DNA from: an uncultured Woeseiaceae bacterium | Lineage (GTDB): Bacteria > Pseudomonadota > Gammaproteobacteria > Steroidobacterales > Woeseiaceae | Assembly: GCA_947259985.1 (NCBI GenBank) | Contig: CAMYOJ010000020.1 | Span: forward strand, 6,413 to 64,081 | Length of the DNA stretch: 57,669 nucleotides | Reading direction: 5' to 3' | Shown: piece after piece, positions 28,090 to 52,218 of the stretch | Numbering within the stretch: the first letter of the stretch is position 1 | Layout of the letters: each line of letters begins with the position of its first letter | The notes under the pieces: model-generated | Told to the model about the DNA's origin: nothing | Databases searched by the model: none | Seen by the model: the letters and a program-made list of their open reading frames with translations, nothing else | Translations under genes and position numbers: made by a program

Positions 28090-28090
28090 G

Positions 28091-31445: not shown

Positions 31446-32913
31446 AGGTGTACACCGTCTCGTCGAGGCTGCCCTGCGTCTCGTGGAAGAAGCGTCGCAG
31501 CAGGTTCTGGGTTGCGCGCATCCTGATGTCGGCCGACGCGCGCATATCGCTGATCGGAATGAAATCCTGCGCCAGTGCCGCGGCTGCCCGCTCCACGGTT
31601 TCCCGGCTCCATGCCTGGCCGTTGATGGCCTGCTCGCAATTCGTCGCCCGCTTCACGACAGGCGCAAGTCCGCCGCAAGCCATCTGGAAATCGGCGACTT
31701 TGTCGCCGTCGAGTTGCAAACGGTAGGCCGTGCAAACGGCCGATATGTCCTGGTCGAAGCGCTTCGACCATTTCTGGCTGCGAACGATCGCGCCGGGATC
31801 AGGCATCGGTATGCGAATGCGCTCGAGAAACTCGCCAGGCGCCATGTCGTTGACCTGGTAGTCGTGGTAGAACGCGTCGAGCGGCAACTCACGCTGCTTG
31901 CCGCCTCGCCGCAGCACGAGCGAAGCGCCGACGACCATCAACGCAGCCATCGAGTCGCCAATCGGGGAGCCGTTCGCGATGTTGCCACCGAGCGTTCCGG
32001 CGTTGCGAATCGGTGGAGACGCGAAACGACGGAAAAGCTCGTCGAGCCCCGGATACTGCTTTACGAGAACCGGAACGACGTCCGTCAGCGTGACGGCGCT
32101 GCCCACCTCGATGTGCGACGACGTAAGTTCGAGGGCTTTGAGTTCACTGACACGCCCGGTGTAGATGAGCGTCTCCAGTTCGCGGTGCTGCTTGGTCACC
32201 CACAGGCCGATATCGGTGCCGCCCGCGAGTATCGTTGCATCGGGATGCTGCTTGTACAGTTCAGCGAACGCTGCGATGTCGAGCGGCGCGAAAAAGTGAT
32301 GTCCATCGTGTTCGAGGGCCAGACCGTCTTTTCTGACCAGGCGGTCGAGCCGTTCAACACGTTCCTTCGGGTCTTGTGCTGTGCCGAAGGCTTGTCGCAA
32401 CCAGTCGGACTGCGGGTCTGCCTCTTCGTACATGGATTGCGCGGCTGCAATGATGGGTCGATAGCCCGTGCAGCGGCAGAGGTTGCCGGCCAGCGCGTCG
32501 TCGATCTCCTGCCTCGACGGGTTGGCATTCGACTTGTAGAGCGCAAACAGTGACATGACGAAACCGGGCGTGCAAAAACCGCATTGCGAGCCGTGATGCT
32601 CCACGAGCGCGCGTTGCACCGGGTGCAGGTCATTCGCGTCGGGCGCAAGACTCTCGACTGTGATCAGTTCCTTGCCGTCGATGGTAGGCAGGAACTGGAT
32701 GCAGGAGTTAATGGCCCTGAGCGACAGATCATCGCCGTTCGCTTCAGCGACGACGACAGTACAGGCGCCGCAGTCGCCTTCGGCGCAGCCCTCTTTCGTT
32801 CCCTTGCGACCGAGGTCTTCGCGCAGGAATTGCAGGACCGTTCGGGTCGGGTCTATGTCGTCAATCTCAATGACTTCGCCGTCGAGCACAAACCTGATGG
32901 AGGAATCAGACAT
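31429..32913 (-). CDS. xdhA: Xanthine dehydrogenase FAD and [2Fe-2S] subunit
   Basis: 494 residues. N-terminal plant-type ferredoxin domain (C43, C48, C51 and C71), second [2Fe-2S] domain (C111, C114, C146, C148 in CGFCTPGFVMSLFAL and CRCTGYRPI), then the FAD domain (ATILAGGTDIGLWVTK, RNAGTLGGNIANGSPIGDS) and CO-dehydrogenase flavoprotein C-terminal domain. It carries electrons from XdhB to NAD+. Gene order uraH-xdhA-xdhB-xdhC; it starts five bases after uraH. Confidence 0.95.
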   Translation of the reverse strand: MSDSSIRFVLDGEVIEIDDIDPTRTVLQFLREDLGRKGTKEGCAEGDCGACTVVVAEANGDDLSLRAINSCIQFLPTIDGKELITVESLAPDANDLHPVQRALVEHHGSQCGFCTPGFVMSLFALYKSNANPSRQEIDDALAGNLCRCTGYRPIIAAAQSMYEEADPQSDWLRQAFGTAQDPKERVERLDRLVRKDGLALEHDGHHFFAPLDIAAFAELYKQHPDATILAGGTDIGLWVTKQHRELETLIYTGRVSELKALELTSSHIEVGSAVTLTDVVPVLVKQYPGLDELFRRFASPPIRNAGTLGGNIANGSPIGDSMAALMVVGASLVLRRGGKQRELPLDAFYHDYQVNDMAPGEFLERIRIPMPDPGAIVRSQKWSKRFDQDISAVCTAYRLQLDGDKVADFQMACGGLAPVVKRATNCEQAINGQAWSRETVERAAAALAQDFIPISDMRASADIRMRATQNLLRRFFHETQGSLDETVYTYGRQR

Positions 32914-36314: not shown

Positions 36315-37283
36315 CTAGCCCAGCCAGTCTGCGATGATTTTCGACACGCGTGGGTGAATGTAATAGCCGACCGAACTGTGAGGGTTCGACTTACCGTAAC
36401 GCACAGCCAGGTTGAAGATGCGGTAGTCATGCACAGCACTGACCTGCCGCTGCTTGAGCATCTTCTTGAAATCATCCGCCAGCGTATTGTCGTGACAGGT
36501 GTAATCGTCCTCGGCGGACACGTTATGCCACGAGATCACGTTGGCCGGGAACTTGCTGGTAGCATGTTCCTTCGCGCCTGCCAGGCGTTTCTGGATATTG
36601 CGATCACCGAGTGGCGAACCCAGGGAGAGCCACATCTCGACCTTGCTGTCGCCGTAGCGTTCTTTGAGATCCGCGTCATGCGACATTTCCCACAACACAT
36701 CGTAGGCGATAACGCTGCCCGTCCCATGCGTGATCAGCAGGATGCGGTCACCGCGGTCCATGAGCTCGGCGAGCTCATTGCGTAGCCGAGCCCGCATCTG
36801 CATCCCGTAGTTGAGCTTCTTGTTGAAGTAGGCGGCAAAATCGCGGGCCAGCGTCCGCACTACGGGCATCGCGAGTCCGACGCCGCCAAGTATCGGAGCC
36901 GTTACATCGGCGATGAATTCAGGGATGGCAGATTTGCCGGGCAGCCTGTCGTATTGGCGTATGCCAAAGCGTTTGCGCACCGGGATCTCACGCAGCGCAT
37001 TGAGCGCATTGCGGCGGTCGCCGATATCGAGATCCTGGTCATAAGTCTTGCCGGCTGCTTCGAGAATCTCGGCACTGAGATCGCCGTACCATGCAAAGTG
37101 CTTCTGCAGCACGTCGAAACCGTCGACTTTGTCGGGGTAGTCGCGTTCGACGCCGGCGCGCAACGCCGCCATCGAGATATCGAGGTAAGCTTCGCGGCCG
37201 GGCTTGAAGTCCCTGCCGTGAACCAGCAGCAGGCTGCGATTCGACGGACCGGCGAGTTCCTCCAGTGTCATCAGCTCACTCAT
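36315..37283 (-). CDS. Alpha/beta-hydrolase-like protein lacking the nucleophile serine
   Basis: 322 residues from ATG 37283, which overlaps the preceding stop (TGATG). LLLVHGRDFKPG near residue 20 and ILLITHGTGSVIAYDVLW at 181-198 look like the oxyanion and nucleophile-elbow strands of lipase-type alpha/beta hydrolases. The elbow reads H-G-T-G-S where active enzymes read H-S-x-G, so Gly187 replaces the serine. It may be a non-catalytic relative or use another residue. Third gene of an operon with the ureohydrolase and DUF4956 genes. Confidence 0.6.
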   Translation of the reverse strand: MSELMTLEELAGPSNRSLLLVHGRDFKPGREAYLDISMAALRAGVERDYPDKVDGFDVLQKHFAWYGDLSAEILEAAGKTYDQDLDIGDRRNALNALREIPVRKRFGIRQYDRLPGKSAIPEFIADVTAPILGGVGLAMPVVRTLARDFAAYFNKKLNYGMQMRARLRNELAELMDRGDRILLITHGTGSVIAYDVLWEMSHDADLKERYGDSKVEMWLSLGSPLGDRNIQKRLAGAKEHATSKFPANVISWHNVSAEDDYTCHDNTLADDFKKMLKQRQVSAVHDYRIFNLAVRYGKSNPHSSVGYYIHPRVSKIIADWLG

Positions 37284-37939
37284 CAATTCTCGTAATCATC
37301 TTCGCCGGCGTCCCGGCGCGTCAACATCGTAAGAAACGGCCCCGCCAGGGTCTTGCCGTACTCGAGCTTCCAGATTATCAGTGTCGCGAGCACGAACATC
37401 ATCGAAATAACACCTGATATTCCAAGCGCCCCGATGCCCGAGCCGAGACCAATGCCGATGGCGACGAATATATACATCGCATCGGACGGCTGACTCAGCG
37501 AAAAGCGGAAGCGAACGGCCGCGACAACGCCGGCAAGGCTGAACGCCAGGGCGAGACTGTTGACCACGATCATCGCGATTCCCGTCACGACCACCGGCAA
37601 GATGATAATGGTCTGCAGGAAAGACTGATCGATTCGGCGCGCCCGGCTCGTAATGAAATACACCCAGGATACGGGCACGGTCAGGATCAGGGAACCGACG
37701 CTGGCCATCGCCAGTCGCACCGGACCTGTCGGCGCAAGAATAGTCCGCTCCACCATCGTGTAGACGGGTTCGAATGACTCTTCGTTGGAGGCGGCGGCAA
37801 GCTCGCCGATGCCGCCCAGTGGCAGGTACTCGGCCAGGGCCGGGTAGCGTGCTACGAGCAGGAAAACGGAACCGAACCAGAAGCCATAGTAGGTCAGGAT
37901 TACCGTGAGCGGTATCAGCAAGTTTGCAGATCGTCTCAT
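37283..37939 (-). CDS. DUF4956 membrane protein
   Basis: 218 residues with four or five membrane segments. The DUF4956 core is the glycine/alanine-rich helix pair TIIILPVVVTGIAMIVVNSL and AFSLAGVVAAVRFRFSLSQP, followed by DAMYIFVAIGIGLGSGIG. Function unknown; related proteins are often found next to polyphosphate-polymerase (VTC-like) or CotH genes. Its ATG overlaps the ureohydrolase stop (ATGA), so it is translated from the same message. Confidence 0.75.
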   Translation of the reverse strand: MRRSANLLIPLTVILTYYGFWFGSVFLLVARYPALAEYLPLGGIGELAAASNEESFEPVYTMVERTILAPTGPVRLAMASVGSLILTVPVSWVYFITSRARRIDQSFLQTIIILPVVVTGIAMIVVNSLALAFSLAGVVAAVRFRFSLSQPSDAMYIFVAIGIGLGSGIGALGISGVISMMFVLATLIIWKLEYGKTLAGPFLTMLTRRDAGEDDYEN

Positions 37940-38988
37940 CGCGCTACTCCGTGCCTGGTCCCGCCGTCACCACGAATCGCGAGCGTCATCAGGGATAGAA
38001 TTTCAAACAGCATCTGTGCCCCTACATGCACGGTATTGCTGGTCGCGTCGTATTGTGGCGCGATTTCCACCACGTCGCCACCAATCACATTGATACCCGA
38101 CAGGCCCTGCAGCAGCTGCATGGCCTCGCGCGGCGTCAACCCGCCGATCTCGGGCGTGCCGGTTCCCGGGGCGAACGCCGGGTCGAGGCCGTCAACATCG
38201 AACGTCACGTAGACAGGACCTTCGCCAATAACGTCTCGCGCCTTCCTGACGACCGCATCGACACCCATTCGTTCAAAGTCCTCGATATGAATGACGGTCA
38301 TGCCGGACTCGTAGGAAAATTCCCACAGAAATTCGGAGTTGCCGCGGATGCCGATCTGCACGGTTCTATCCGGGTCCAGAACACCGTCGAGCACGGCGGT
38401 GCGGAACGGGCCGCCATGGTGGAACTTCGAGTGGTCGTACACACCGCCTGTGTCGCAGTGCGCGTCGATATGAACGCAGGCCAGCGGCTCGCCGGCGCCG
38501 AGCGCCTTGAGGATCGGGTAGGTTATCGAGTGATCGCCACCCACGGAGAGCGGCCGAACTCCGGCGTCGCGCAGGCTCACGTAATGCGCCTCGATGTCCT
38601 GCATGCACATTTCGAGATTGAAGCGGCTGCGAAAAGGCACATCGCCAATATCGGCTATGCGGCACTCGGCGCGCGGCACGATCCTGTGCACGTGGTGATA
38701 CGGTCCGACGCGTTCCATCGCCCGCATCGCGCGAGGTCCGAATCTGGCGCCATTGCGATTCGTGACACCCAGGTCCATGGGCACGCCAATCAAGCCAATC
38801 TCGACATCGTCGAAGCGCTCGGCATGCGGCGCGTCGAGCAATGTCGGGATGCCGCCGTAAGGCAAAGCCCTGTTGCCGGAACTCTCGAACAGGAGATCCG
38901 CAACCTTGCGAAATTCGGGGTCGAAGACGTCGTCCCCCATCGCGCCCTGATACTTGTCCCTGAGCCTTTGTAATTTTTCCAGGTCCAT
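37936..38988 (-). CDS. Agmatinase/guanidino-acid ureohydrolase
   Basis: 350 residues of the arginase fold. Binuclear manganese ligands appear in SVGGDHSITYP, CVHIDAHCDTGGVYD and YVTFDVDGLDPAFAPGTGTP; the GLTPREA that follows is typical of agmatinase-type members. Releases urea from agmatine, guanidinobutyrate or a similar guanidino compound; the N-terminal extension of about 40 residues before the catalytic domain is closer to guanidinobutyrase/guanidinopropionase-type enzymes than to E. coli SpeB, so I do not assign speB. First gene of a three-gene operon with unusual partners. Confidence 0.85.
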   Translation of the reverse strand: MDLEKLQRLRDKYQGAMGDDVFDPEFRKVADLLFESSGNRALPYGGIPTLLDAPHAERFDDVEIGLIGVPMDLGVTNRNGARFGPRAMRAMERVGPYHHVHRIVPRAECRIADIGDVPFRSRFNLEMCMQDIEAHYVSLRDAGVRPLSVGGDHSITYPILKALGAGEPLACVHIDAHCDTGGVYDHSKFHHGGPFRTAVLDGVLDPDRTVQIGIRGNSEFLWEFSYESGMTVIHIEDFERMGVDAVVRKARDVIGEGPVYVTFDVDGLDPAFAPGTGTPEIGGLTPREAMQLLQGLSGINVIGGDVVEIAPQYDATSNTVHVGAQMLFEILSLMTLAIRGDGGTRHGVAR

Positions 38989-39116
38989 GACCTGTGTCCT
39001 TTATCGGCCAGACTAGCAAGATACCGACATGGCACAAGATTCGCCAACCCGACAAGCGCGCAAGCGTCGCCACGTGATGGTAGGCTATGCGCCGTTTTGG
39101 GCACATGGATAGAAGA

Positions 39117-40094
39117 ATGACGGTTCAGCTACTCGGTATCAGCAATGCCATTGTCGACGTGCTCGCGCACGTGGACGAAGACTTCCTGAAGACCATTGGC
39201 GCGGCGCCGGGCTCCATGACATTGATCGAAAAGGACCGGGCCCGGGAGATCTACAACCAGATGGGGCCGGCAACTGAGATGTCAGGTGGCTCGGTTGCCA
39301 ACACCGTGGCCGGTTTCGCCAACCTGGGCGGCACGGCCGCCTACATTGGCAAGGTAAAGGCCGACCAGCTGGGTACGATTTTCAACCATGACATGCGCTC
39401 ACTGGGCGTCGACATCCGCCTCAAGGCAGCGCCCGGTGGTGCGCCAACGGCGCGAAGCCATGTGCTGATTACCGAGGATGGTCAGCGCACGATGCAGACC
39501 TACCTGGGCGCCTGCCTCGAACTGGGGCTGGCCGACATCACGCCCGGCACTGTCGGCGCGCCGAAGGCCATTCTTATCGAAGGCTACGTCTTCGACATCG
39601 CCGAGGGCCCGCAGCTCGCGCAGAGAGCTGCCGAGATCGCACGCGGCAACGGCACCGCAGTCGCCTTGTCGCTGTCCGACTCGTTCTGCGTCGAACGTCA
39701 CCGCGAAGTGTTCCTGGAGTTCGTGCGCAATGACGCCAATATCGTCGTCGCCGATGAAGACGAGATCAACGCGCTGGTCGGGGCGGCGGATTTCGACGCA
39801 ACGCTGGAGGCGCTGCAGGACTTCGACCAGCTGTTCGCGATGACGCGGTCGGAGAAAGGCTCGGTCATCCTGCGCGGCGACGAAAAAGTCGAACAGACCG
39901 CGACGCCCGTCGAGACCGTCGTCGATACGACAGGCGCCGGCGATGCTTACTGCGCGGGATTCCTGTACGGCTGGGTCAACGAGAAGCCGCTCCAGAAATG
40001 CGCCGAGTACGGCACGCACTGCGCCACGAAGGTCATTCAGCAGCTGGGCGCCCGTATCGAGCCTGGCTTGCTCGACGACTTTGAATCTCTTTGA
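39117..40094 (+). CDS. PfkB-family kinase, adenosine-kinase-like
   Basis: 325 residues from ATG 39117 (MTVQLLGISNAIVDVLAHVD), the start that best matches relatives; ATGs at 39105 and 39087 are alternatives. PfkB signatures: MSGGSVANTVAGFANLGGTA (sugar site) and VDTTGAGDAYCAGFLYGW (catalytic Asp and anion hole). The ISNAIVDVLA opening is typical of the adenosine kinase/inosine-guanosine kinase branch. It converges on the BMC operon and its last 62 bases overlap the final shell gene. A role in phosphorylating a nucleoside or ribose in the same pathway is likely but inferred. Confidence 0.82.
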   Translation: MTVQLLGISNAIVDVLAHVDEDFLKTIGAAPGSMTLIEKDRAREIYNQMGPATEMSGGSVANTVAGFANLGGTAAYIGKVKADQLGTIFNHDMRSLGVDIRLKAAPGGAPTARSHVLITEDGQRTMQTYLGACLELGLADITPGTVGAPKAILIEGYVFDIAEGPQLAQRAAEIARGNGTAVALSLSDSFCVERHREVFLEFVRNDANIVVADEDEINALVGAADFDATLEALQDFDQLFAMTRSEKGSVILRGDEKVEQTATPVETVVDTTGAGDAYCAGFLYGWVNEKPLQKCAEYGTHCATKVIQQLGARIEPGLLDDFESL

Positions 40095-40365
40095 CCCACG
40101 GTAGTTCAACGTCGTCGACGATGCCGACGATGATCGAACGTACAGGTGCCGCATCGTCGTCGAGTACCTGGCGCGCGCCGTTACCTTCGTCGAGTATCAA
40201 TACGGTCTCGCCTTTGCCGGCGCCGATCGCGTCCATCGCGATGAGGTAGCCACCCGTCGGCTTGCCACTCGCATCGAGCCGCTCGGCGAGCAGCAGCTTG
40301 CGGCCCTCGACAATGGGATGGTGAATCGTCGACACCACGCTACCCGTTACACGTCCAAGTATCAT
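40033..40365 (-). CDS. BMC-P shell vertex protein (EutN/CcmL family), copy 1
   Basis: 110 residues from ATG 40365. Pentameric BMC vertex protein: MILGRVTGSVVSTIHHPIVE, LIAMDAIGAGKGETVLILDE, and IIVGIVDDVEL are the EutN/CcmL landmarks. It has a C-terminal tail of about 20 residues (WVKEIQSRRASQARYGRPAA) beyond the usual end. The start overlaps copy 2 by four bases (ATGA). The tail region overlaps the 3' end of the convergent kinase gene. Confidence 0.9.
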   Translation of the reverse strand: MILGRVTGSVVSTIHHPIVEGRKLLLAERLDASGKPTGGYLIAMDAIGAGKGETVLILDEGNGARQVLDDDAAPVRSIIVGIVDDVELPWVKEIQSRRASQARYGRPAAE

Positions 40366-40652
40366 TCGCCAAGCTCCCCGGGCGGGTAATTCCTGACCTC
40401 GTCGACGAGGCCCACGATAGCGTCGTCGACCGGCACGAACCACGGATCGAGCGTCAGCGCGGCTTCACGGCTCGCGACCCAGTAGATGACTTGCCCGGGT
40501 CCTGCCATGCGCGTGCCATCCGCGCAGACGAACGGCTCGCCGTCGTCCTTGCCCTCGCGATCGAGTGGCTGCACCCAAAGCAACGGCGTTGCCGACAGTT
40601 CGTCAACGAGCACGGCGGGCACTACGGTGCCGATTACACGTCCCAGGAGCAT
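40362..40652 (-). CDS. BMC-P shell vertex protein (EutN/CcmL family), copy 2
   Basis: 96 residues with a strong GGAGGAGG ribosome site. MLLGRVIGTVVPAVLVDEL and FVPVDDAIVGLVDEVRN match the family, but the middle loop is diverged (CADGTRMAGPGQVIYWVASR instead of the usual GAGxGExVL segment). Such variation among three copies suggests distinct vertex or pore roles. It starts 19 bases inside the end of the BMC-T gene. Confidence 0.88.
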   Translation of the reverse strand: MLLGRVIGTVVPAVLVDELSATPLLWVQPLDREGKDDGEPFVCADGTRMAGPGQVIYWVASREAALTLDPWFVPVDDAIVGLVDEVRNYPPGELGE

Positions 40653-41284
40653 GCAACCTCCTCCGGGTATTCGGCGCCGGACGGCTCGAACGCCCCACAG
40701 TCGCCGAAGCGCGTGCCCTTGTCGAGCAATGAACGCAGGTCGGCGTCAATCCTGGGTAACAAGCTGCGCGCGAGTAACTGATCCCCCGCCCGCTCGGCGC
40801 ATATCGCGAGCGCCGTTTCAGTATCCGTCAGATTGCCGCTTACCAACGCCAGCGCGTGGCCGCCCAGGTCATCGCCCAGGCGCACTTCCGAAAGCACGAC
40901 CGGGGTGCTCTTTACGGCCGCATCGATAGCGCCCAGCAGCGCGGGTGAGGAGCGCGTCTCTACGACACCGAGCGCATCGCCGACGAGGCCGCGCCGGACG
41001 CCAAGCACGGCATCATGCAACATGGGATGCACATCGCCGAGGAAGATGCTTCCCGTCAATGCGCGCTTGGACTCACCCGTTTGCGCGCCGACCGCAAATG
41101 CTTCCTCGGTGCTGGCGACACTTCCGCCGACGAGTATCAGGAAGCGACCCGGGTGGATCGTCCCGCAGCGCAGCAAAGCAATCGGGGAACACTTGACCAT
41201 GAGGTCGCCGGCCAGGACGCCGGCCGCGACGGTCTCGAACTCCAGCAATGCGAGGGCTCCGTGTCGCTTCTGGGTTGCCACCAC
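40634..41284 (-). CDS. BMC-T tandem-domain shell protein, copy 1
   Basis: 216 residues containing two BMC domains in tandem, forming a pseudohexameric trimer. First domain: ALALLEFETVAAGVLAGDLM, then GRFLILVGGSVASTEEAF; second domain: AVLGVRRGLVGDALGVVETR, then HALALVSGNLTDTETAL. The C-terminal tail contains cysteines (DCGAFEPSGAEYPEEVACSW). GTG start at 41284, five bases after the aldehyde dehydrogenase stop. Confidence 0.9.
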   Translation of the reverse strand: MVATQKRHGALALLEFETVAAGVLAGDLMVKCSPIALLRCGTIHPGRFLILVGGSVASTEEAFAVGAQTGESKRALTGSIFLGDVHPMLHDAVLGVRRGLVGDALGVVETRSSPALLGAIDAAVKSTPVVLSEVRLGDDLGGHALALVSGNLTDTETALAICAERAGDQLLARSLLPRIDADLRSLLDKGTRFGDCGAFEPSGAEYPEEVACSWDV

Positions 41285-41289
41285 GCGCC

Positions 41290-42759
41290 TTAGACGATGC
41301 GAAAGTGATCGACGAGGACACAGCGTCGCAAACGGCTGAACGAGATGGGGCCCGTGAGTCCCTCGCCCGTCGGGCTCGCGATCGTAAAGCTGCTGTGGCC
41401 TTCGCCTCCTTCACCGAGACCGGCAAAGAATGGCCCGTTCTTGGTGAAGATGCTCGTATTGATGGTTCGCGCCATGCGGCTCAGCGCATCGATGTCACGC
41501 GAGTACATGCCCGCCGAATGGCCATAGCCGTGCTCGGCCTCTTTGGCGAGTTGGATGCCGGTCTCGACGTCAGGTACCGCCGTGACCGGCAGGACGGGCA
41601 TCATCTGCTCGGTCCAGATCAGCGGGTGGTCGTTCGGGACTCTTGCGACCAGCAGCTTCGGGTCGCCATTGCAGGAGATTCCGGCGCGCTCGAGTATCAC
41701 GCTCGCGTTCTTGCCGATCAGGTCTTTTTCCACGACGGCGTGCTTGCGGGGTCCGCGCTGCTCGCTGAAGATCGCCTGCTCGACGCGATGCAGTTCGCCT
41801 TCGCTGAGCACGTAAGCGCCGTTGCGGCCCATCTGCCTGATCAACTCGTCGACAACGGTGTCAACCGCAATGACTTCCTTTTCATCGGTGCACACGATGT
41901 TGTTGTCGAAAGACGCACCGGCCACGATCTGGCGGCCGGCGAGCTCCAGGTCTGCCGTATCGTCCACCACCACGGGCGGATTTCCGGGTCCGGCGCAAAT
42001 GGCACGTTTGCCGCTCGTCATCGCCTGGCGCACGACACCGCTGCCGCCCGTCACGGCCAGCAACCTGACGCCTTTGTGCGTCATTAAGGCCTGCGCCGAT
42101 TCGATCGTCGGCTCGGCCACGGCCGTCACCAGGTTCTCGGGCCCACCGGCGCGCACGATCGCCTTGTGCAGGAGGCGTACATTCGCCATGGAACATTCGC
42201 GGGCATTCGGGTGCACGTTGAAGACAATACTGTTGCCGGCCGAAAGCATGGCGATCGTATTGCATATGATCGTCGAGGTCGGATTCGTTGTCGGCGTGAT
42301 CGCGCCGATCACGCCGTAGGGCGCATACTCGGTGAGAGTCAGGCCATCGTCCCCGGTCACGGCTTGCGGCGTCAGCACCTCGGTGCCCGAGGTCTTGCGC
42401 GTGACGAGCCGGTTCTTGACGATCTTGTTTTCTACGCGACCGAGACCGGTCTCCTCGTGCGCATGGCGCGCCAGGGCTTCGGCATTCTCGAACATGCATT
42501 CGCGAATCGACGCGATGATCTGCTGTCGGGTTTCGAGTGACGCGCCGTCGAATTGTTCGAATGCGATGCGCGCAGCTGCGACGGCGTCGTCCACCGTGGC
42601 AAATATGCCCTCACCGAGCGTCGCGCGAGGAGCAACACTCGGCGCATGACTTACTGCGGCGTTCGTTGTCCTTGCTGCTTGTGGAGTACCGAGGCGTTCG
42701 GCCAGGCGGGTGGCAATCAGGTCCACCTGCTGGTCGCTGAGCATCCCGGCCTGGCTCAT
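41290..42759 (-). CDS. CoA-acylating aldehyde dehydrogenase with N-terminal encapsulation peptide
   Basis: 489 residues, PduP/EutE type. Converts an aldehyde (acetaldehyde predicted here) plus CoA and NAD+ to acyl-CoA and NADH. Catalytic Cys290 lies in GASFDNNIVCTDEKEV; NPTSTIICNTI, VTGGSGVVRQAM and AGPGNPPVVVDD are family landmarks. Residues 7-24 (LSDQQVDLIATRLAERLG) form an amphipathic helix followed by a Thr/Ala/Pro linker, the form of BMC cargo-targeting peptides. The stop is five bases before a BMC-T gene and the start overlaps a BMC-P stop (ATGA). No alcohol dehydrogenase or phosphotransacylase partner is next to it. Confidence 0.93.
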   Translation of the reverse strand: MSQAGMLSDQQVDLIATRLAERLGTPQAARTTNAAVSHAPSVAPRATLGEGIFATVDDAVAAARIAFEQFDGASLETRQQIIASIRECMFENAEALARHAHEETGLGRVENKIVKNRLVTRKTSGTEVLTPQAVTGDDGLTLTEYAPYGVIGAITPTTNPTSTIICNTIAMLSAGNSIVFNVHPNARECSMANVRLLHKAIVRAGGPENLVTAVAEPTIESAQALMTHKGVRLLAVTGGSGVVRQAMTSGKRAICAGPGNPPVVVDDTADLELAGRQIVAGASFDNNIVCTDEKEVIAVDTVVDELIRQMGRNGAYVLSEGELHRVEQAIFSEQRGPRKHAVVEKDLIGKNASVILERAGISCNGDPKLLVARVPNDHPLIWTEQMMPVLPVTAVPDVETGIQLAKEAEHGYGHSAGMYSRDIDALSRMARTINTSIFTKNGPFFAGLGEGGEGHSSFTIASPTGEGLTGPISFSRLRRCVLVDHFRIV

Positions 42760-43055
42760 GCATCATCCCCCTTGCGGTATTTTTCCTTGCCCTCGATTTC
42801 CCAGCTGTCGACGATCGCCATGACCACGGCGTCCACGGGCTTGTTGTCGGTGCGCTCGGTCTGGCGGGCCGAGGAACCGCTCGCGAACAGGACCATCTCG
42901 CCGACGCCGGCGCCGACGGCGTCGACCGCCACCACCGAATCGCCCGTCGCTTTGTTGTCGTGACCCCAGACGCCGAGCATCAGGAATCGCAGTCCTCCTA
43001 GCTTGGCGTCTTTCTCGGTGGCGACGACGGTGCCGAGTACCTTTGCGAGTTTCAC
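42756..43055 (-). CDS. BMC-P shell vertex protein (EutN/CcmL family), copy 3
   Basis: 99 residues, GTG start at 43055. MKLAKVLGTVVATEKDAKLG, VVAVDAVGAGVGEMVLFASG and DAVVMAIVDSWEI are full matches to the EutN/CcmL pattern, making this the most canonical of the three vertex proteins. Placed between BMC-H and the aldehyde dehydrogenase gene, overlapping the latter by four bases. Confidence 0.92.
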   Translation of the reverse strand: MKLAKVLGTVVATEKDAKLGGLRFLMLGVWGHDNKATGDSVVAVDAVGAGVGEMVLFASGSSARQTERTDNKPVDAVVMAIVDSWEIEGKEKYRKGDDA

Positions 43056-43071
43056 GGCTGTACCAGGGACA

Positions 43072-43368
43072 TTACTTCTTGCCGGATTCGGGGGCGCGGC
43101 CCAGCGGAATCGTCATGTCGACACCCGTGTGTGGACGTGCGATCACGTGGACTGCGACTACGTCACCAACACGCGCACCGGCTGTTCGCCCGGCGTCGCA
43201 TGCAGCGCGCACGGCTGCGACATCGCCACGCACGACGGCGGTCGTGTAGCCACCGCCGGTTTTCTCATAACTGACGAGTTCGACCTTGGCCGCTTTGACC
43301 ATCGCGTCGGCCGCCTCCACCATCGCCGGAAAACTCCGGCATTCGATCATTCCCAATGCTTCTGACAT
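43072..43368 (-). CDS. BMC-H hexameric shell protein
   Basis: 98 residues, single BMC domain: [56 protein letters not shown] and [13 protein letters not shown]. This is the only BMC-H gene in the locus and so should form most of the shell facets. The pore loop (around EKTGGGYTT) is glycine-rich. Upstream of copy 3 of BMC-P and 51 bases after the second BMC-T gene. Confidence 0.95.
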
Positions 43369-43419
43369 CGCCTTGCTCCTCGCGAATCGGGCATCGCTGC
43401 CCGCGTTGATCTATGAAAA

Positions 43420-44040
43420 CTATTTCTTCTTCGTACCCGTGACCGCCTCGATCGCCTGCGTCGCCGCCTCGTGCGCGACCACCACGTCTCTTTCCTCGCC
43501 GCCGATATAGACACGCCCGAAGCTGCCCACGGCTCGCACTTCGAGGATATTGATGTCCGCCGCCTTCTCAGCCTCGTTTGCAGCCAGCGCGGCGTAGGCG
43601 GCCGGTTCGACCTCGAGCACGAACAGTGTCTGCCCGGCAAGAATCATGTTGCCGTGGCGGAATCGGTTGATCAGCATCGTTTGGGTGTCCTCGAGATGCC
43701 GCACAACCTCGTTGGCGACGACCCGCGGCTTGTGCCGGTCCTTTTCCTGGAGTCCCAGCGAATCGAGAATCGCCTGCCCGGCCTGGCGCACGTCCGCCTG
43801 GCTCTCGGAATGAAGCTCGAGCATGCCGTAGTGGCGCTCGACGATCTGCATGCCGGCCGTCACGTCCGTTGCCTTCAACGCAACGTCGAGGATGTGGTTG
43901 ATCGCCATGCCGGGGGCGATTTCCACGAACAGGCTCGCCTGCCCGACCTTGGGAAGGTAGCCCTTGGAAATCGTCGCCTGGAAGGACGCGAACTGCGGCT
44001 GCAGCGAGTCGAGAAAAACGTAGGCTCTCAGGTCGACCAT
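43420..44040 (-). CDS. BMC-T tandem-domain shell protein, copy 2
   Basis: 206 residues. Two BMC domains: first with RAYVFLDSLQPQFASFQATI and GQASLFVEIAPGMAINHILD; second with TQTMLINRFRHGNMILAGQT and ILEVRAVGSFGRVYIGGEER. The C-terminus ends in Lys residues. It differs strongly from copy 1 and resembles the double-stacking BMC-T types with gated pores, but stacking cannot be proved from sequence. Twelve bases after the RpiB-DeoC fusion stop. Confidence 0.9.
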   Translation of the reverse strand: MVDLRAYVFLDSLQPQFASFQATISKGYLPKVGQASLFVEIAPGMAINHILDVALKATDVTAGMQIVERHYGMLELHSESQADVRQAGQAILDSLGLQEKDRHKPRVVANEVVRHLEDTQTMLINRFRHGNMILAGQTLFVLEVEPAAYAALAANEAEKAADINILEVRAVGSFGRVYIGGEERDVVVAHEAATQAIEAVTGTKKK

Positions 44041-44052
44041 CTATGATTCTCC

Positions 44053-45378
44053 TCAAGCACTCATGCTTGTCGATTTTGCTTCCCGGACGATGCCGATACT
44101 GGCGCTTGCGCCGAGGCGCGTGGCGCCCGCCTCGATCATCGCCCTGGCGTCGCTGTAGGAACTGATACCGCCGGACGCCTTGACCTCCATACCGGCGCCG
44201 CGCACGACGTCGGCCATGAGTGCGACGTCGCTGACCGTGGCGCCGCCGGTCGAGAATCCCGTTGACGTCTTGACGAAATGGGCACGTGCTTTTCTCGCGA
44301 GCTCCGACGCGCGACGCTTTTCGTCGTCAGTCAACAATGCCGTCTCGAGGATGACCTTGCAGACGGCGTTGCCGTCAACGCAGTCCTCGACAACGGCCTG
44401 GATGTCGCGCAGGACGAGCGCATCGTTGCCGCTCTTGAGCGCGCCGATATTGAGCACCATGTCGATCTCGCGCGCTCCGTTACGAATCGCGCGACGTGCC
44501 TCCATGGCCTTGATCTCCGGCTCGGTGGCGCCAAGCGGAAAACCGACAACGGTGCAGGTGAGCACGTCGCTGCCCCGCAACAGCCCGGCCGCGAGCTTCA
44601 CCCAGGTCGGGTTCACGCAGACCGAACGGAAATTGTATTCGAGAGCCTCGGCGCAGAGCTTGCGTACCTGCTCCTCGGTCGCCTGCGGCTTGAGCAATGT
44701 ATGGTCGATGTATCGCGCCAGGTCGCCCGGGATGCTGCCTGGAACCTCGGCCGGCGACACGCTCGTCAGGCCGGTGGCGCCCAGCTTGACGAATTTGCGC
44801 GCGGCGTCGGGATCGTCACCGACGCAGGGGCCATCGGGTTCCGCATTCGTTATCGGGCCGATGATCTCGTGCAGGCGATTCACAACGCGGTCGATATCCT
44901 GCTCGGACAGGTCCAGGTTGCTGACCCCGTCCGGTGCCTGGTCGGCAAACATCGCGACGCGCTTGCGGTGGCGGGCTTCGGTGCAATCGGTCGCCAGCCA
45001 CGTGTCAACGATCTGCCTGGCAAGCCCCGATCCGATCAGGCCGGCCCCCAGGGTCAGCACATTGGCGTCGTTGTGTTCGCGACTGTTGCGTGCACTCGAT
45101 AGATCGTAGGCCAGCGCCGCGCGCACGCCGGGGACCTTGTTGGCCACCATGCACGAACCGATGCCGGCGCCGTCGATCATGATGCCGACGTCGGCCCTGC
45201 CCTGCGATACAGCGTCCGCGACGGCCCGCGCAAACACCGGGTAGTCAACAGCTTCATGAGATGAAGTACCGACGTCCTCGACCATAAACCCGGCCTTCTT
45301 CAGATGAAGTACGAGGTCGCCCTTGAGCACGAATCCGCCATGGTCCGCGCCGATCGCAATTCTTTTCACCGCTGTCAT
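44053..45378 (-). CDS. RpiB/LacAB-type isomerase fused to deoxyribose-phosphate aldolase (DeoC)
   Basis: 441 residues from ATG 45378, overlapping the regulator stop (ATGA); ATG 45384 is also possible and residue numbers here count from it. Residues 1-150 are an RpiB/LacAB sugar-phosphate isomerase ([35 protein letters not shown]), but the catalytic CGTG is DGAG (Asp71). Residues 159-176 ([18 protein letters not shown]) are a helix resembling a BMC encapsulation peptide. Residues 220-435 are DERA, with Asp308, Schiff-base Lys372 (FVKTSTGF) and Lys402 (VKASGGI) all present, so 2-deoxyribose 5-phosphate should be cleaved to glyceraldehyde 3-phosphate and acetaldehyde. Central enzyme of the BMC locus. 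Confidence 0.93.
45252..45266. promoter_or_regulatory. Palindrome CTTCAT-GAG-ATGAAG (site 5)
   Basis: Perfect 6-3-6 inverted repeat inside the isomerase-coding region. It is the best match to a 15-bp motif repeated five times around the BMC regulator; its centre is 43 bases from site 4, close to four helical turns. Intragenic position allows a downstream-operator role. Confidence 0.5.
45295..45309. promoter_or_regulatory. Palindrome CTTCTT-CAG-ATGAAG (site 4)
   Basis: One mismatch from the CTTYAT-N3-ATRAAG consensus, inside the first codons of the isomerase domain. The right half continues as AGATGAAGTAC, as in site 5. Confidence 0.45.
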
Positions 45379-45722
45379 GCCCATACCGCCGCATCGTCCT
45401 GTTGTCTCGAACCGGCCGCGGGCCTCGAGGTGCCCGTTTCGCGGTCCAGAACCTGTTGTAACTTCATCACATAAAGTCGAAGCCGCTCGAGGCCGAGTTC
45501 CGTGATGCTGAATTCCGTCACCGAGCGCCGCCCGCGCTTGACCTTGTCGATACGGATGTAGCCGACGTCCGCGAGCTTGCGCGTCTGCACGTGCAGGTTG
45601 CCATCGGACAGGCTCGTCGCCTCTTTCATCTCTGTAAACGACACGGGCGTGCCCGGCACGAGCGTGGCCAGGATGCCGAGGCGACAGGGGGCGCTGATCA
45701 TTTCGTCGAAGTGCAGTTTCAC
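45375..45722 (-). CDS. Winged-helix regulator of the BMC locus
   Basis: 115 residues from GTG 45722; the frame extends to TTG 45746 or 45776, but those would lie at or before the predicted transcription start. ArsR/MarR-like single-domain winged helix (HTH_34 style): [40 protein letters not shown] (recognition region), [20 protein letters not shown] (wing). No obvious effector domain, so it may sense a ligand through the dimer interface. Encoded between deoD and rpiB-deoC, in the same direction, and overlapping the fusion gene by four bases. Predicted operator: the repeated CTTYAT-N3-ATRAAG palindrome, including one copy on its own promoter. Confidence 0.8.
45462..45476. promoter_or_regulatory. 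Palindrome CTTCAT-CAC-ATAAAG (site 3)
   Basis: One mismatch to a perfect inverted repeat; lies within the 3' part of the regulator gene, where it encodes L-Y-V-M-K, so a coding coincidence cannot be excluded. Confidence 0.4.
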
Positions 45723-45733
45723 GGTGTGATTAA

Positions 45734-45748
45734 CTTTATTTCGCAAAG
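45734..45748. promoter_or_regulatory. Palindrome CTTTAT-TTC-GCAAAG (site 2) on the promoter
   Basis: A weaker copy of the motif (CTT...AAG ends kept) that overlaps the last two bases of the predicted -10 box and the expected transcription start. A protein bound here would block initiation, the classic place for an autorepressor. Confidence 0.5.
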
Positions 45749-45776
45749 TATCATCCCTGAGGCGATGCCTTGTCAA
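45747..45776 (-). promoter_or_regulatory. Predicted sigma-70 promoter of the regulator and BMC operon
   Basis: On the minus strand, -35 TTGACA (45776-45771, exact consensus), 18-bp spacer, -10 GATACT (45752-45747). Transcription should start near 45740, 18 bases before the GTG at 45722. Confidence 0.55.
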
Positions 45777-45804
45777 GCCTCGATACCACGATTCAGGCAG
45801 TTTT

Positions 45805-45819
45805 CTTTATATTATGAAG
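45805..45819. promoter_or_regulatory. Palindrome CTTTAT-ATT-ATGAAG (site 1)
   Basis: One mismatch from a perfect 6-3-6 inverted repeat, in the non-coding gap between the deoD stop and the promoter, about 71 bases from site 2. An upstream site like this could support looping with site 2. Confidence 0.5.
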
Positions 45820-45857
45820 TTGATGAGGGCCTTATGGCGCCTGCTTTTCACCCGGGG

Positions 45858-46565
45858 CTAGGCTATAGCGGTTTCGAGCGCGACGAGGATCATTTCGTCG
45901 AAGGTCGTCGCGCGCTCGTCCGACGTCAGGTGCTCATCGGTCCTGAGGTCGTCGCTGACCGTGCAGATGGCAAGCGCTTCGGCGTCGTTCTCGGCCGCAA
46001 TCGGGAAGATGCCCGCCGCCTCCATTTCGAGGCCGTAAATATTGAACTTCGCCATGGTCTCGAACATGCCCGGGTCGGGCGTATAGAACAGGTCCGCCGA
46101 GAACAGGTTGCCCACGTGGTAGCGGATTTGTTGGGCCTCGGCCGCGTGGACAGCCTTTCGCACGAGATCGAAGCTGGCGAGCGCCGCGAGGTCATAACCG
46201 CCGAAGCGCATACGATTGCAGTTGGAGTCGGTCGATGCGCCCATGGCGATGATGACATCCCGCAGCTGGACATCGGGATGAGAAGTGCCACAGCTGCCGA
46301 CGCGGATGACGCGCCTGACGCCGTACTCGGTTATGAGTTCGGTGCAGTAAATCGAGACCGACGGGATGCCCATGCCGTGGGACATGACCGATATCGGCTG
46401 GTCTTTGTAGCGGCCCGTAAAGCCCCACATGTTGCGAACGTCGGTGACACGACGTGCGTCGTCGAGGTAGGTGTCGGCGATGTACTGCGCGCGCAGCGGA
46501 TCTCCGGGCATCAGCACCGTTTCGGCGAAATCGCCGGGTGCCGCGTTCATGTGCTTGGTCGCCAT
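45858..46565 (-). CDS. deoD: DeoD-type purine nucleoside phosphorylase
   Basis: 235 residues, the standard hexameric PNP length. Cleaves purine (deoxy)ribonucleosides with phosphate to base plus (deoxy)ribose 1-phosphate. Landmarks: [38 protein letters not shown] (phosphate site), [10 protein letters not shown] (sugar site) and the catalytic Asp in [12 protein letters not shown]. Preceded by AGAGAAG. It links the base-degrading operon with the BMC sugar-phosphate enzymes; phosphopentomutase (DeoB), needed between them, is not in the window. Confidence 0.94.
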
Positions 46566-46598
46566 ATTCTTCTCTTTATGTTGCAGCCGCTTGCCGGG

Positions 46599-47366
46599 TC
46601 ACCATTTGCTTTGCGCCGACATGCCGCCGTCGACGACGAGGTTGGCGCCGCTGATCCAGCGTGCGGCGGGGCTGAGCAGAAACAATACCGCGTCGGCAAC
46701 ATCAATGGGAGAGCCAATGCGCCCGAGCGGCACGCGATCGTGCCAGCGGCCGACGCCATCGGGCCAGTCTCGCGCCAGGCCTTCGCGGTCCACCAGGCCG
46801 GGGGCCACACAGTTGACGCGGATGTTGGACGAGCCGAATTCGAGGGCCGCCGCGCGCGTCAGCATCAGTAATGCGGCTTTGCTGGTCGCATAATGGCCAC
46901 GGCCGGCTGCCGGATCCATGCCTTCGATCGAACCGATATTGACGATGGCGCCCGCCCTGCCCGCCGCGATCCACGCTTTCGCAGCCCGCTGCGTGAGCAG
47001 GAACGCGCTGTCGAGGTTCGCAGCCATCATGTCGCGCCAATCGGCAAGACTCATGTCCCCGAGCGCCGCCGCGGGCTGCACCGCGGCATTGTGCACGAGC
47101 AAGGTCGGCTGATCAGACGAGAACATGGCATCGACAGCGGCTTCGTCGCCCAGATCGGCCTGCACCGTTTCACCCTGCCCGAGACGTTCGATCAGCTCAC
47201 GCGCCGCCCGCTCGTTGCTATTGTAATGCGCAATGATAGAGGCTCCTGCCTCGGCCAGTCGTGTCGCGATCGCGGCACCGATATTGCCGCTCGCTCCGGT
47301 CACGAGCACCGTCTCGCCCGAGAGGTCAAGAAGTTCGCTCGTGGCCCGTGTCATTGTCTGGTTCAT
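46599..47366 (-). CDS. Short-chain dehydrogenase/reductase
   Basis: 255 residues, classical SDR: cofactor motif TVLVTGASGNIGAAIA, LLVHNAAV, catalytic Ser in IVNIGSIEG and YATSK (Tyr/Lys pair), and C-terminal GANLVVDGG. General appearance is of a sugar or 3-oxoacyl dehydrogenase; substrate not assignable. Upstream of deoD on the same strand with a 33-base gap, so probably the first gene of the nucleoside/BMC transcript. It might regenerate NAD+ or act on a pentose, but has no encapsulation peptide. Confidence 0.8.
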   Translation of the reverse strand: MNQTMTRATSELLDLSGETVLVTGASGNIGAAIATRLAEAGASIIAHYNSNERAARELIERLGQGETVQADLGDEAAVDAMFSSDQPTLLVHNAAVQPAAALGDMSLADWRDMMAANLDSAFLLTQRAAKAWIAAGRAGAIVNIGSIEGMDPAAGRGHYATSKAALLMLTRAAALEFGSSNIRVNCVAPGLVDREGLARDWPDGVGRWHDRVPLGRIGSPIDVADAVLFLLSPAARWISGANLVVDGGMSAQSKW

Positions 47367-50154: not shown

Positions 50155-51152
50155 ACTTATTCGCCCATTTGGCGACTGATCGTCTCCATCAAGCAGCAAA
50201 CAAAGCCCGGCTTTTAGCCGGGCTTTTTTGCTTGTCGACTACGCTGCTGTGCGCTTGCTCGGACCCTAACGAGACGCTACCCGCCGAAGTCCGTCTCGTC
50301 CCGGTCGTCATCGGCAAACTCGAGGACCCGAAGATTCGTGAAGCCAGCGGACTCGCGCGATCGCAAAAGACCGAAAACGTGCTCTGGACCATCAACGACA
50401 ACGGCGCCAAGGAATGGGTTCACGCGATTGCTCCGAATGGCCGGCGACTCGGCGAGTTCGATCTCAAGAAATCCGAAAACAAGGACTGGGAGGACCTCGC
50501 CTCGTTCGTGCTTAATGACACGCCCTATCTGCTCGTCGCCGATATCGGCGATAACGACGCCAGGCATAAGAAACGTACGCTCTACGTCGTTGAGGAGCCT
50601 GACGTAGAGAAAAGCGGCAAGGCCCGGGTAGGCTGGCGCATCGACTTCAGGTACCCGGACGGTCCGCGCGACGCGGAATCCGCCGCGGTCGATATCGAAA
50701 ACCAGCGTGCATTGGTTCTTTCCAAACGTGACATTCCGCCCGTACTTTACGAATTACCGCTGGTACCCGAAGACGACAAGACCATCACCGCGACATGGCT
50801 CGGCACGATCACGAGCCTGCCGCGGCCCTCCCGCCAGGACGTCCAGTTTGCCCCCAAGACCAAGGACTGGCACTGGCAGCCCGTCGGCATGGACATCTCG
50901 GCCGACAATCTCGCGGCCGTGATACTCACCTACCGGGCCGTCTATTTCTACAGCCGGCAGCCAGGCCAGGATTGGTTTGATGCCTTGAACCAGAAGCCGA
51001 GACGCGTGAGCATCGGCAACTTCAGGAACGCGGAGGCCATCGCGTTCGCGAATGACAAGCGCAGCGTTATCGTGACGGGCGAGAATCGCCATTCGCGATT
51101 GTTGCTGATTAACTTCGACGAGGATGTGGCGAATGCTGAAGAGAACGAATAG
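50151..51152 (+). CDS. Beta-propeller-like lipoprotein
   Basis: Up to 333 residues from TTG 50151, which overlaps the receptor stop (TTGA); TTG 50169 is also possible and no ATG exists before the lipobox. ANKARLLAGLFCLSTTLLCA followed by Cys is a full lipoprotein signal peptide. The mature part, with REASGLARSQKTENVLWTIN, KDWEDLASFVLNDTPYLLVA and IGDNDARHKKRTLYVVEEPD, looks like a six-bladed beta-propeller family of unknown function. The signal-peptide codons are also a terminator hairpin (50202-50229), so expression probably depends on read-through from the receptor gene. Confidence 0.65.
   Translation: MNLFAHLATDRLHQAANKARLLAGLFCLSTTLLCACSDPNETLPAEVRLVPVVIGKLEDPKIREASGLARSQKTENVLWTINDNGAKEWVHAIAPNGRRLGEFDLKKSENKDWEDLASFVLNDTPYLLVADIGDNDARHKKRTLYVVEEPDVEKSGKARVGWRIDFRYPDGPRDAESAAVDIENQRALVLSKRDIPPVLYELPLVPEDDKTITATWLGTITSLPRPSRQDVQFAPKTKDWHWQPVGMDISADNLAAVILTYRAVYFYSRQPGQDWFDALNQKPRRVSIGNFRNAEAIAFANDKRSVIVTGENRHSRLLLINFDEDVANAEENE
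50202..50229 (+). terminator. Rho-independent terminator inside a signal-peptide reading frame
   Basis: Perfect 10-bp stem AAAGCCCGGC (50202-50211) and GCCGGGCTTT (50217-50226) around a TTTTA loop with a T-tract to 50229. It follows the TonB receptor stop by 47 bases but is also read as codons for K-A-R-L-L-A-G-L-F of the next protein. Confidence 0.85.
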
Positions 51153-52218
51153 CGCGCCGCTCATCGCACTGGTCGCTGCATTCCTGCTGGCCGGCTGTGC
51201 CGGTATTACCGAGCCCGAAACGAAATCCGGGCCGCTGTCCGTCACGGTGATGAGCTTCAACGTCGAGAACCTGTTCGATAACGCGGACGACCCGGGAAAA
51301 GACGACAAGGCTTACCTGCCGATCGCGGCGAAGCGCAACGAATCCCATGTCGCCGCCTGCAACGAAATCCAGGTCGACCGGTGGCGCGCCGAATGCCGGT
51401 CGCTCGACTGGAGCGATGCGGCCATCGAGTTCAAGTTACGCGCGCTGGCAACCACGATTCGGCAGGTCAATGATGGACTCGGCCCCGACATTATTGCGCT
51501 GCAGGAAGTCGAGAACCTGGGCGTACTCGAGCGCCTGCGAACAGAGCATCTCGCGACGTCCGCTTACCTGCCTGCAATCCTCATAGAGGGCAACGATGCC
51601 CGCGGCATCGATGTCGCGTTTCTCTCGCGCCTGCCGCTGCTGCGCCCCGCCGTCCTGCATCCGCTGACGCTGGACGATTACACGGACCGGGCAGCCGACA
51701 CGCGCGGCATATTGCAGGCCGATTTCGAGCTACCCGATGGCTCCGTACTGACGGGCTTCAGCGTGCACTTCCCTGCGCCGTTCCACCCGACGGAGATGCG
51801 CGTCGCGGCCTACGATCACCTGACCCACCTGCTGCAGGCGTTGCCCGAAGACCACCACGCGTTCGCCGCCGGCGATTTCAATACGACGAGCCGTGAGGAC
51901 CAGGAAATGCATATGCTCGACACCTGGGCACGGCCGTACTGGACAGTTGCCCACGACATCGGCTGCAAGGCCTGCAAAGGCACCCAGTATTACGCGCGCG
52001 ACGACAGCTGGTCGTTTCTCGACACGATCCTGTTCCGCGAGGCGCGTGGCGGAAATACAACAGCGCGAATCCGCGCTGATTCGGTACGAATCGCAAACGG
52101 CAACCCGGCCCAGGTCGCGCCGAACCGGACGCCCGAACGCTTCAGCTGGGCCGGGAGAAAAGGCGTTTCGGACCACTGGCCCATCGTCGCCACAATCGAA
52201 TTCGCACAAAAACAATAG
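51133..52218 (+). CDS. Exported endonuclease/exonuclease/phosphatase-family lipoprotein
   Basis: 361 residues from ATG 51133 (AGG nine bases upstream); ATG 51124 is the alternative. Lipobox LLAGC in APLIALVAAFLLAGCAG. EEP-fold motifs: VMSFNVENLFDNADDPGKDD, DIIALQEVEN (metal-binding Glu), AFAAGDFNTTS and GVSDHWPIVATIEF (catalytic Asp-His). The fold includes DNase I-like nucleases and phosphatases, and this one has the layout of extracellular nuclease-type members. It overlaps the end of the preceding lipoprotein gene by 20 bases, so the two are coexpressed. Action on DNA is possible, not shown. Confidence 0.82.
   Translation: MLKRTNSAPLIALVAAFLLAGCAGITEPETKSGPLSVTVMSFNVENLFDNADDPGKDDKAYLPIAAKRNESHVAACNEIQVDRWRAECRSLDWSDAAIEFKLRALATTIRQVNDGLGPDIIALQEVENLGVLERLRTEHLATSAYLPAILIEGNDARGIDVAFLSRLPLLRPAVLHPLTLDDYTDRAADTRGILQADFELPDGSVLTGFSVHFPAPFHPTEMRVAAYDHLTHLLQALPEDHHAFAAGDFNTTSREDQEMHMLDTWARPYWTVAHDIGCKACKGTQYYARDDSWSFLDTILFREARGGNTTARIRADSVRIANGNPAQVAPNRTPERFSWAGRKGVSDHWPIVATIEFAQKQ

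Follow-up and report, generated by a model that had tools for sequence, protein, structure and literature searches.

In enterobacteria, DeoD, DeoC, DeoB and DeoA are encoded together in the deo operon and jointly serve the catabolism of deoxynucleosides. Among bacterial microcompartment (BMC) loci, those with sugar-phosphate enzymes were named the SPU type by Axen et al. (2014) and linked to DNA catabolism (PMC4207490). Sutter et al. (2021) assigned to this type more than 280 members from 26 phyla, in seven subtypes, and proposed DNA degradation products as the substrate (PMC8217296), a proposal repeated in PMC8156839. Here, we analysed a stretch of 57,669 nucleotides from an uncultured sediment bacterium of the Woeseiaceae (contig CAMYOJ010000020.1; hereafter the window), which carries an SPU-type BMC locus beside a deoD gene. 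At the same site, sister species carry a soluble set of genes encoding DeoC and aldehyde dehydrogenases. Gene content, conserved gene order and the repeated one-for-one swap between the two sets are observed directly. We consider it likely that this microcompartment replaces the lower half of the deoxynucleoside pathway, converting deoxyribose-5-phosphate into acetyl-CoA and glyceraldehyde-3-phosphate, and that it is fed by deoxynucleosides in general.

Unlike in the enterobacterial operon, the DeoC step of the window is fused to an RpiB-like domain, carries a targeting-type helix and stands among shell genes with a CoA-acylating aldehyde dehydrogenase (AldDH). A pfam01791 DeoC-type aldolase, a pfam02502 RpiB-type protein, an AldDH and BMC shell genes are shared with the SPU loci as described in the main texts of both surveys, as are a CcmP-like BMC-T, named there for some subtypes, and the proposed function in the use of DNA sugars. 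What sets the window system apart is that sister species have a soluble counterpart at this site, that nucleoside phosphorylases stand alongside, that the genome has no phosphotransacylase (PTAC) family match and that the active site of RpiB carries Asp and Ala. PduL is reported for the SPU loci of the first survey except those of Marinimicrobia, in which aldolase and isomerase are fused (PMC4207490), and it is not named as a defining component in the main text of PMC8217296. The window shares fusion and lack of PduL with the Marinimicrobia loci, a likeness by description and not by sequence, and differs from them in host lineage and neighbourhood. Both the SPU type and the DNA-sugar hypothesis are already in print (PMC4207490, PMC8217296, PMC8156839). 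The word "nucleoside" occurs 0 times in the main texts of PMC4207490 and PMC8217296. Literature searches combining RpiB with bacterial microcompartments returned, by title, only these two surveys on BMC loci and nothing closer, and none was found joining Woeseiaceae and microcompartment. As far as main texts show, there is no earlier account in print of the natural swap, of the association with nucleoside enzymes, of a targeting-type helix inside the fusion or of the RpiB site specific to SPU loci.

The original prediction, made from the letters of the window, had listed one BMC-H, two BMC-T and three BMC-P shell genes, an AldDH, an RpiB-DeoC fusion, DeoD, a PfkB-type kinase, a short-chain dehydrogenase/reductase (SDR) and a winged-helix gene, and had assigned them to the SPU class; profile matches recover every one of them, and the aldolase, RpiB-type protein, AldDH and BMC-H/-T/-P set bear out the class. 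Read along the reverse strand, the cassette begins with an HTH_34 winged-helix protein, a putative regulator (45375-45776; PF13601 62 bits), and continues with the RpiB-DeoC fusion (44053-45384; TIGR00126 276 bits, cut-off 117; TIGR01120 142 bits, cut-off 139), a CcmP-like BMC-T (43420-44040), the BMC-H hexamer protein (43072-43368; PF00936 100.7 bits), a BMC-P vertex protein (42756-43055; PF03319 98.5 bits), the AldDH (41290-42759; NF011927 cut-off 403), a PduT-like BMC-T with two BMC domains (40634-41284) and two further BMC-P vertex proteins (40362-40652, PF03319 55.7 bits; 40033-40365, within an open reading frame at 40033-40443 and starting with the ATG at 40365). The CcmP-like protein scores 303 bits against NF053796, under its cut-off of 340, and 24.1 bits against PF00936, slightly under the cut-off of 24.5. 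The fusion consists of an RpiB-like domain (1-147), a linker helix (161-175) and a deoxyribose-phosphate aldolase (DERA) domain (220-435), the identity of which is indicated both by family score and by the residues of catalysis: D308, K372 and K402 are retained, as are the corresponding Asp, Lys and Lys in 87/87 aligned rows. Where near relatives of the fusion protein bear a name, it is mostly Woeseiaceae or Gammaproteobacteria. The host genome, a metagenome-assembled genome (MAG) that is 82% complete, gave no PF00936 or PF03319 match beyond those of the window. A class-wide search with the CcmP-like protein gave matches in 55 of 274 genomes. Most of these have 43-52% identity, and they are perhaps carboxysome or other BMC relatives.

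Organelle and soluble gene sets at one chromosomal site

The cassette is flanked on one side by DeoD (45858-46565, reverse strand; TIGR00107 333 bits, cut-off 232) and an SDR oxidoreductase whose family matches point to no single function (46599-47366, reverse strand), and on the far side by a PfkB adenosine-kinase-like protein on the forward strand (39087-40094; nearest solved chains 3ubo and 4e3a), the frame of which opens 30 bases ahead of the start given originally. An assignment of DeoD as a nucleosidase for methylthioadenosine and S-adenosylhomocysteine, serving the salvage of methylthioadenosine or 5'-deoxyadenosine, was rejected: the nucleosidase models gave 22-57 bits against cut-offs of 74-768, and the DeoD models were passed. 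We surveyed the slot between DeoD and PfkB in stretches taken from 66 genomes: 63 belong to the window's genus, and three are outgroups of other families with a strong DeoD match. Proteins of the window and genes of relatives that lack the BMC served as queries. The count omits the second stretch of G342 and that of G012, and some stretches end at contig ends.

The slot occurs in three states: the BMC state, with the nine genes in the order given above; a soluble state, with a short DeoC (TIGR00126 184 bits) and two aldehyde dehydrogenase genes, one classical and one encoding a half-length homologue; and an empty state, in which DeoD directly adjoins PfkB. The 66 stretches comprise 40 soluble slots, 17 forward, five reversed and one probably reversed BMC slots, two empty slots and one of unknown state. 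With both flanks present (n=44), the counts are 29 soluble, 11 forward BMC, two reversed BMC and two empty. All nine cassette genes are found in the same order in 13/13 two-flank BMC slots, window included, so that their grouping is more than chance; the complete soluble set is found in 29/29 two-flank soluble slots, and BMC and soluble genes are mixed in 0/66 stretches. Across 73 genus genomes (the window's included), the fusion is present in 21 (20 whole or nearly whole, one cut), the short DeoC alone in 36 and neither in 16 (Fisher p 1.2e-8, relatedness ignored). Three of these 16 have pieces at contig ends, namely BMC-cassette genes in G012 and G017 and a soluble DeoC piece in G347. The half-length homologue (288 aa, e.g. 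L066:4901-5767) is retained in all 29 two-flank soluble slots. In the two empty slots, L189 (G353) and L190 (G035), neither cassette is present, and neither genome has a DeoC match.

The survey separates what travels with the shell from what does not. The HTH_34 gene is found in 22/23 BMC stretches and in 0/40 soluble stretches, so the winged-helix gene of the original prediction does go with the BMC cassette, as a putative regulator. DeoD, SDR, PfkB and the purine-base degradation operon also adjoin the soluble version of the slot. The operon, predicted to lie about 7 kb away, is real (22732-32913, reverse strand; guanine deaminase, ureidoglycolate lyase, allantoicase, UraD, PuuE and XdhC/B/A). 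By their distribution, these four appear as an older chromosomal neighbourhood, and HTH_34, fusion, AldDH and shell genes as the unit that travels together. DeoD thus reads as a member of an older deo cluster, neither a chance neighbour nor part of the travelling core: the synteny of deoD, rpiB-deoC and shell genes holds insofar as the nine-gene order is kept beside DeoD. Likewise, the substrate had been read from the phosphorylase in the run and the nearby purine operon; the deo link is real, and both features also stand next to the soluble set.

In L051, L069, L179, L181 and L183 (G027, G012, G339, G350 and G356), the BMC cassette is reversed between the same flanks. Beside some reversed cassettes (G026, G027, G339, G350) lies a 236-residue protein or a pyrroloquinoline quinone (PQQ) dehydrogenase, and G337, G025 or G033 have one or the other after their soluble set; these shared neighbours suggest that the exchange left the surroundings in place. 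Between PfkB and the reversed cassettes of G026, G339 and G350 it is the PQQ dehydrogenase that is found, a position that would fit a supply of acetaldehyde from ethanol, with the aldolase secondary. We find this hardly credible, the PQQ dehydrogenase being absent from the window and also present beside the soluble slot of G337, and it was rejected as a general acetaldehyde source.

All three outgroup genomes with DeoD have the soluble state (3/3), which is thus the likely ancestral one. Trees were built from rpoB (49 of 66 genomes, the remainder having no match or a short one), flank proteins (44) and DeoD (64); with empty slots omitted, parsimony counts 6, 4 and 8 BMC/soluble changes, respectively. 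A single rpoB clade of all BMC genomes is rejected: forcing it costs 765 log-likelihood units (p-AU, approximately unbiased test, 1e-6), and forcing the forward BMC genomes alone together costs 544 (p-AU 3e-43). The individual gains and losses are not separable from each other. Reversed-cassette genomes (G339, G350, G356 and probably G026) group together on the rpoB tree. A tree of fusion plus AldDH was restricted to rows that also have an AldDH (54 of the 87 with a fusion or DeoC). In it, the 16 sampled Woeseiaceae cassettes form one clade (100/100), whose sister, within a group that spans phyla, is a Thermoanaerobaculia record (L111). The simplest reading would be one import into the lineage, followed by spread and loss within it.

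The RpiB-like domain and candidate encapsulation helices

In characterised RpiB, Cys69 (Cys66 in Escherichia coli) acts as the base and Thr71 moves the proton from O2 to O1; C69A and C69S are inactive, and the Mycobacterium tuberculosis enzyme has Glu75 in place of Cys (PMC4783025). Cys as the base is also reported in PMC3212906. In a gapless alignment with solved RpiBs, the window domain has Asp71 at the Cys, Ala73 at the Thr (Thr68/71) and Ser77 at the Glu of the GGSGNGE type, so that the catalytic base of ribose-5-phosphate isomerase B is absent in either of its known forms. What is shared with the E. coli, trypanosomatid and M. tuberculosis enzymes, apart from the family, are the ring-opening and phosphate-site positions D14, H15, H104, R138, H139 and R142, invariant in 18 fused rows.

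These replacements are common to SPU-type copies. Asp stands at the Cys position in 38/38 fused rows and 37/37 separate RpiBs (75/75), and Ala at the Thr position in 38/38 and 36/37 (74/75), L141 having Val instead; one fused row is gapped at the site, and the 37 separate RpiBs remain from 38 rows after removal of L160s29, which is a DeoC. Host genomes gave 40 RpiB matches, of which 30 were retrieved and 28 had a readable motif: the Asp type accounts for 20, each located on a contig with a BMC locus, and four Cys-type and four GGSGNGE-type copies lie on other contigs. Within the genus, the fusion is the sole PF02502 copy in 9/9 BMC-type genomes; among soluble-type genomes, 6/7 have no match and 1/7 a fragment. 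Since these sister species have the same predicted chemistry and no full-length RpiB, the domain seems to go with encapsulation and not with the pathway.

With the residues for both the C2 proton and the C2 hydroxyl replaced, a C2-deoxy sugar such as deoxyribose-5-phosphate, which has no C2 hydroxyl, would fit the site; as judged from these positions, the site would be kept for ring opening and binding and altered for C2 chemistry. We tentatively suggest, at somewhat less than even confidence, that the SPU RpiB-like protein is a re-tooled luminal partner of the aldolase and no ribose-5-phosphate isomerase, and that the cassette is a plug-in organelle version of the soluble pathway, exchanged at one site within the genus. 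The domain may open the furanose ring of deoxyribose-5-phosphate and pass the open chain to DeoC; as a second choice, Asp may act as a carboxylate base, converting glyceraldehyde-3-phosphate to dihydroxyacetone phosphate inside the shell.

DeoD enzymes also accept ribonucleosides, and the true substrate might then be ribose or another pentose phosphate, with the RpiB part leading and the aldolase acting on something other than deoxyribose-5-phosphate. RpiB-type and DeoC-type proteins are indeed common to all SPU subtypes (PMC8217296), and the fusion clears the cut-off of the RpiB model TIGR01120 by 3 bits and that of NF004051 by 25. Set against this are the replaced Cys and Thr in the SPU-type copies read, the aldolase residues intact in every aligned row and the absence of RpiB from the soluble counterpart, and we regard a pentose-phosphate substrate as improbable.

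Encapsulation peptides are described as amphipathic helices of 15-20 residues, flexibly linked to the ends of cargo proteins (PMC8217296). The AldDH opens with an amphipathic stretch, LSDQQVDLIATRLAERLG, a putative peptide of this kind, and a similar stretch of 18 residues lies in the linker of the fusion; unlike the terminal peptides of that description, this candidate would stand between two domains. Judged by eye, relatives with separate RpiB and DeoC mostly have a similar helix ahead of DeoC, and nine Bacillota DeoC rows have just 4-32 residues there and no amphipathic stretch. The hydrophobic moment (Eisenberg, 15 residues) is 0.74 for the fusion linker, 0.48 for the AldDH and 0.23 for the N-terminus of the soluble ALDH; the soluble DeoC N-terminus, a strongly charged, non-hydrophobic stretch, reaches 0.80, so that the moment alone does not separate BMC cargo from soluble proteins. 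An AlphaFold model of the fusion (mean pLDDT 74.5, pTM 0.51, 18 sequences), used as a basis for the linker helix only, has helix 161-175 (pLDDT ~63) between two disordered stretches. Taken together, the fusion and the AldDH are probably encapsulated. DeoD aligns with the E. coli enzyme from residue 1 and so has no N-terminal extension that could serve as a targeting peptide.

Predicted route from deoxynucleosides to acetyl-CoA

In the route that we favour, nucleoside phosphorylases in the cytosol (DeoD at the locus, DeoA elsewhere in the genome) would release deoxyribose-1-phosphate, which DeoB would convert to deoxyribose-5-phosphate. This would cross the shell, perhaps via the CcmP-like trimer, and be cleaved by RpiB-DeoC, anchored by its linker helix, into acetaldehyde and glyceraldehyde-3-phosphate, as its family and intact aldolase residues suggest. 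The acylating AldDH would then convert acetaldehyde to acetyl-CoA, a capacity indicated by its family match (NF011927 631 bits). The role of the RpiB-like domain is less sure: with its changed site, it probably readies the sugar for the aldolase and does not interconvert ribose-5-phosphate and ribulose-5-phosphate. DeoB is present in 35/35 genomes examined (32/32 of the genus and three outgroups) and the C-terminal domain of DeoA in 24/24 genus genomes, in several of them on the contig of DeoD; together with DeoD, they would make deoxyribose-5-phosphate available from purine and pyrimidine deoxynucleosides. Catabolism of deoxynucleoside sugars, the function originally proposed, is well supported, the BMC sitting where relatives carry DeoC and aldehyde dehydrogenases.

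DERA and acylating AldDH are both reversible, which would also allow the opposite operation: the AldDH would reduce acetyl-CoA to acetaldehyde and the aldolase join it to glyceraldehyde-3-phosphate, as a sink for NADH and a carbon store. Such reverse use as a carbon store was proposed for Atribacteria by Nobu et al. (2016), as relayed in PMC6281690. In the Woeseiaceae, however, the sister-species slot holds DeoC with ALDHs of non-acylating type, suited to the breakdown direction only, the soluble slot clusters with DeoD, and DeoA and DeoB are in the genome; reverse operation here is very improbable.

To see whether nucleoside genes accompany SPU loci elsewhere, we turned to other phyla, taking the best 79 loci among the matches listed, no random sample, of which 67 are not of the Woeseiaceae type and 49 of these have shell genes. 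Nucleoside genes were sought around the 49 with L111 and window proteins as the only queries, 23/49 loci have at least 3 kb on both sides, and the taxon assigned to a MAG contig may be in error. In L111 (labelled Acidobacteriota), two PNP-I purine nucleoside phosphorylase genes, a thymidine phosphorylase and a cytidine deaminase follow directly after the shell genes on the same strand. In L160 (labelled Chloroflexota), a sugar-type ABC transporter, a uridine-phosphorylase-like gene, a cytidine deaminase, a PNP-I and a DeoR-like gene precede the shell genes, and a second DeoC follows them. As these phosphorylases are outside the DeoD family, the nucleoside link appears to have several origins. 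With pyrimidine enzymes in both loci, and DeoB and the DeoA domain genus-wide, the restriction to purines in the original prediction was too narrow; its main line is correct, and its hypothesis was not new. No accessory gene is shared beside most other-phylum cores: the largest cluster touches 11/49 loci, scattered, among the matches listed.

That DeoD might be a chance neighbour of a BMC serving an unrelated pathway, a possibility the original prediction itself had raised, would agree with the scarcity of nucleoside genes around the core outside Woeseiaceae, where they stand in just 2 of the 49 stretches among the matches listed. The swap in the same slot with DeoC and ALDHs, the soluble deo set of the outgroups, the linkage of DeoD and DeoC in relatives whether or not they have the BMC, and the nucleoside enzymes adjoining L111 and L160 largely refute it, and we give it very little credence.

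Several observations nevertheless weigh against a deoxynucleoside-fed organelle. PTAC (PduL, PF06130) was found in 0/31 genomes, by a model that matched in two control genomes, and no alcohol dehydrogenase was found in the BMC core, which leaves the recycling of CoA and NAD in a closed shell unexplained. The just-mentioned 2/49 is a low proportion for nucleoside phosphorylases beside non-Woeseiaceae loci; in L160, the uridine-phosphorylase-like gene scores 230 bits (cut-off 280) and the DeoR-like gene 213 (cut-off 420). DeoB over the family cut-off is missing in 11/20 other-phylum hosts (L111, L142, L147, L150, L157, L160, L163 and L130, with weak matches only in L123, L134 and L135); there, either deoxyribose-1-phosphate reaches the aldolase another way or the genomes are incomplete. 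The DeoA C-terminal domain occurs in just 1/3 outgroups. The fusion's continued passing of both RpiB models also counts here, as does the lack of any shell gene in the stretch for six (L141 among them) out of 37 pairs of separate Asp-type RpiB and DeoC, the stretches of L127 and L132 being short or cut. G342 combines the fusion with a different second DeoC-like gene (43%) beside an ALDH (40%) on another contig (L188, C212), and nearly all genomes compared are MAGs. Finally, the product of the soluble ALDH is predicted from its family, and the compartment and its enzyme activities are predicted from genes.

Elsewhere in the window, two proteins with lipoprotein-like N-termini adjoin TonB receptors. 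The one at 51124-52218 falls in the endonuclease/exonuclease/phosphatase family and weakly matches a model for extracellular DNase, and the one at 50151-51152 matches no family; PDB searches with both gave 0 matches. In the region 37283-38988, the window has an agmatinase-family gene that few relatives share; in many relatives, BMC-type and soluble-type alike, a DUF4956 protein comes after PfkB. Rfam and tRNA scans of the window gave 0 matches.

Sister species with either an organelle or a soluble pathway at one site constitute a natural controlled comparison of the benefit of encapsulation, and this alternation makes the function of the compartment unusually testable. The SPU-specific RpiB site, for its part, predicts an altered enzyme activity. 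If the proposed pathway is true, it would bear on the recycling of DNA carbon in marine sediment, the source of many related records.

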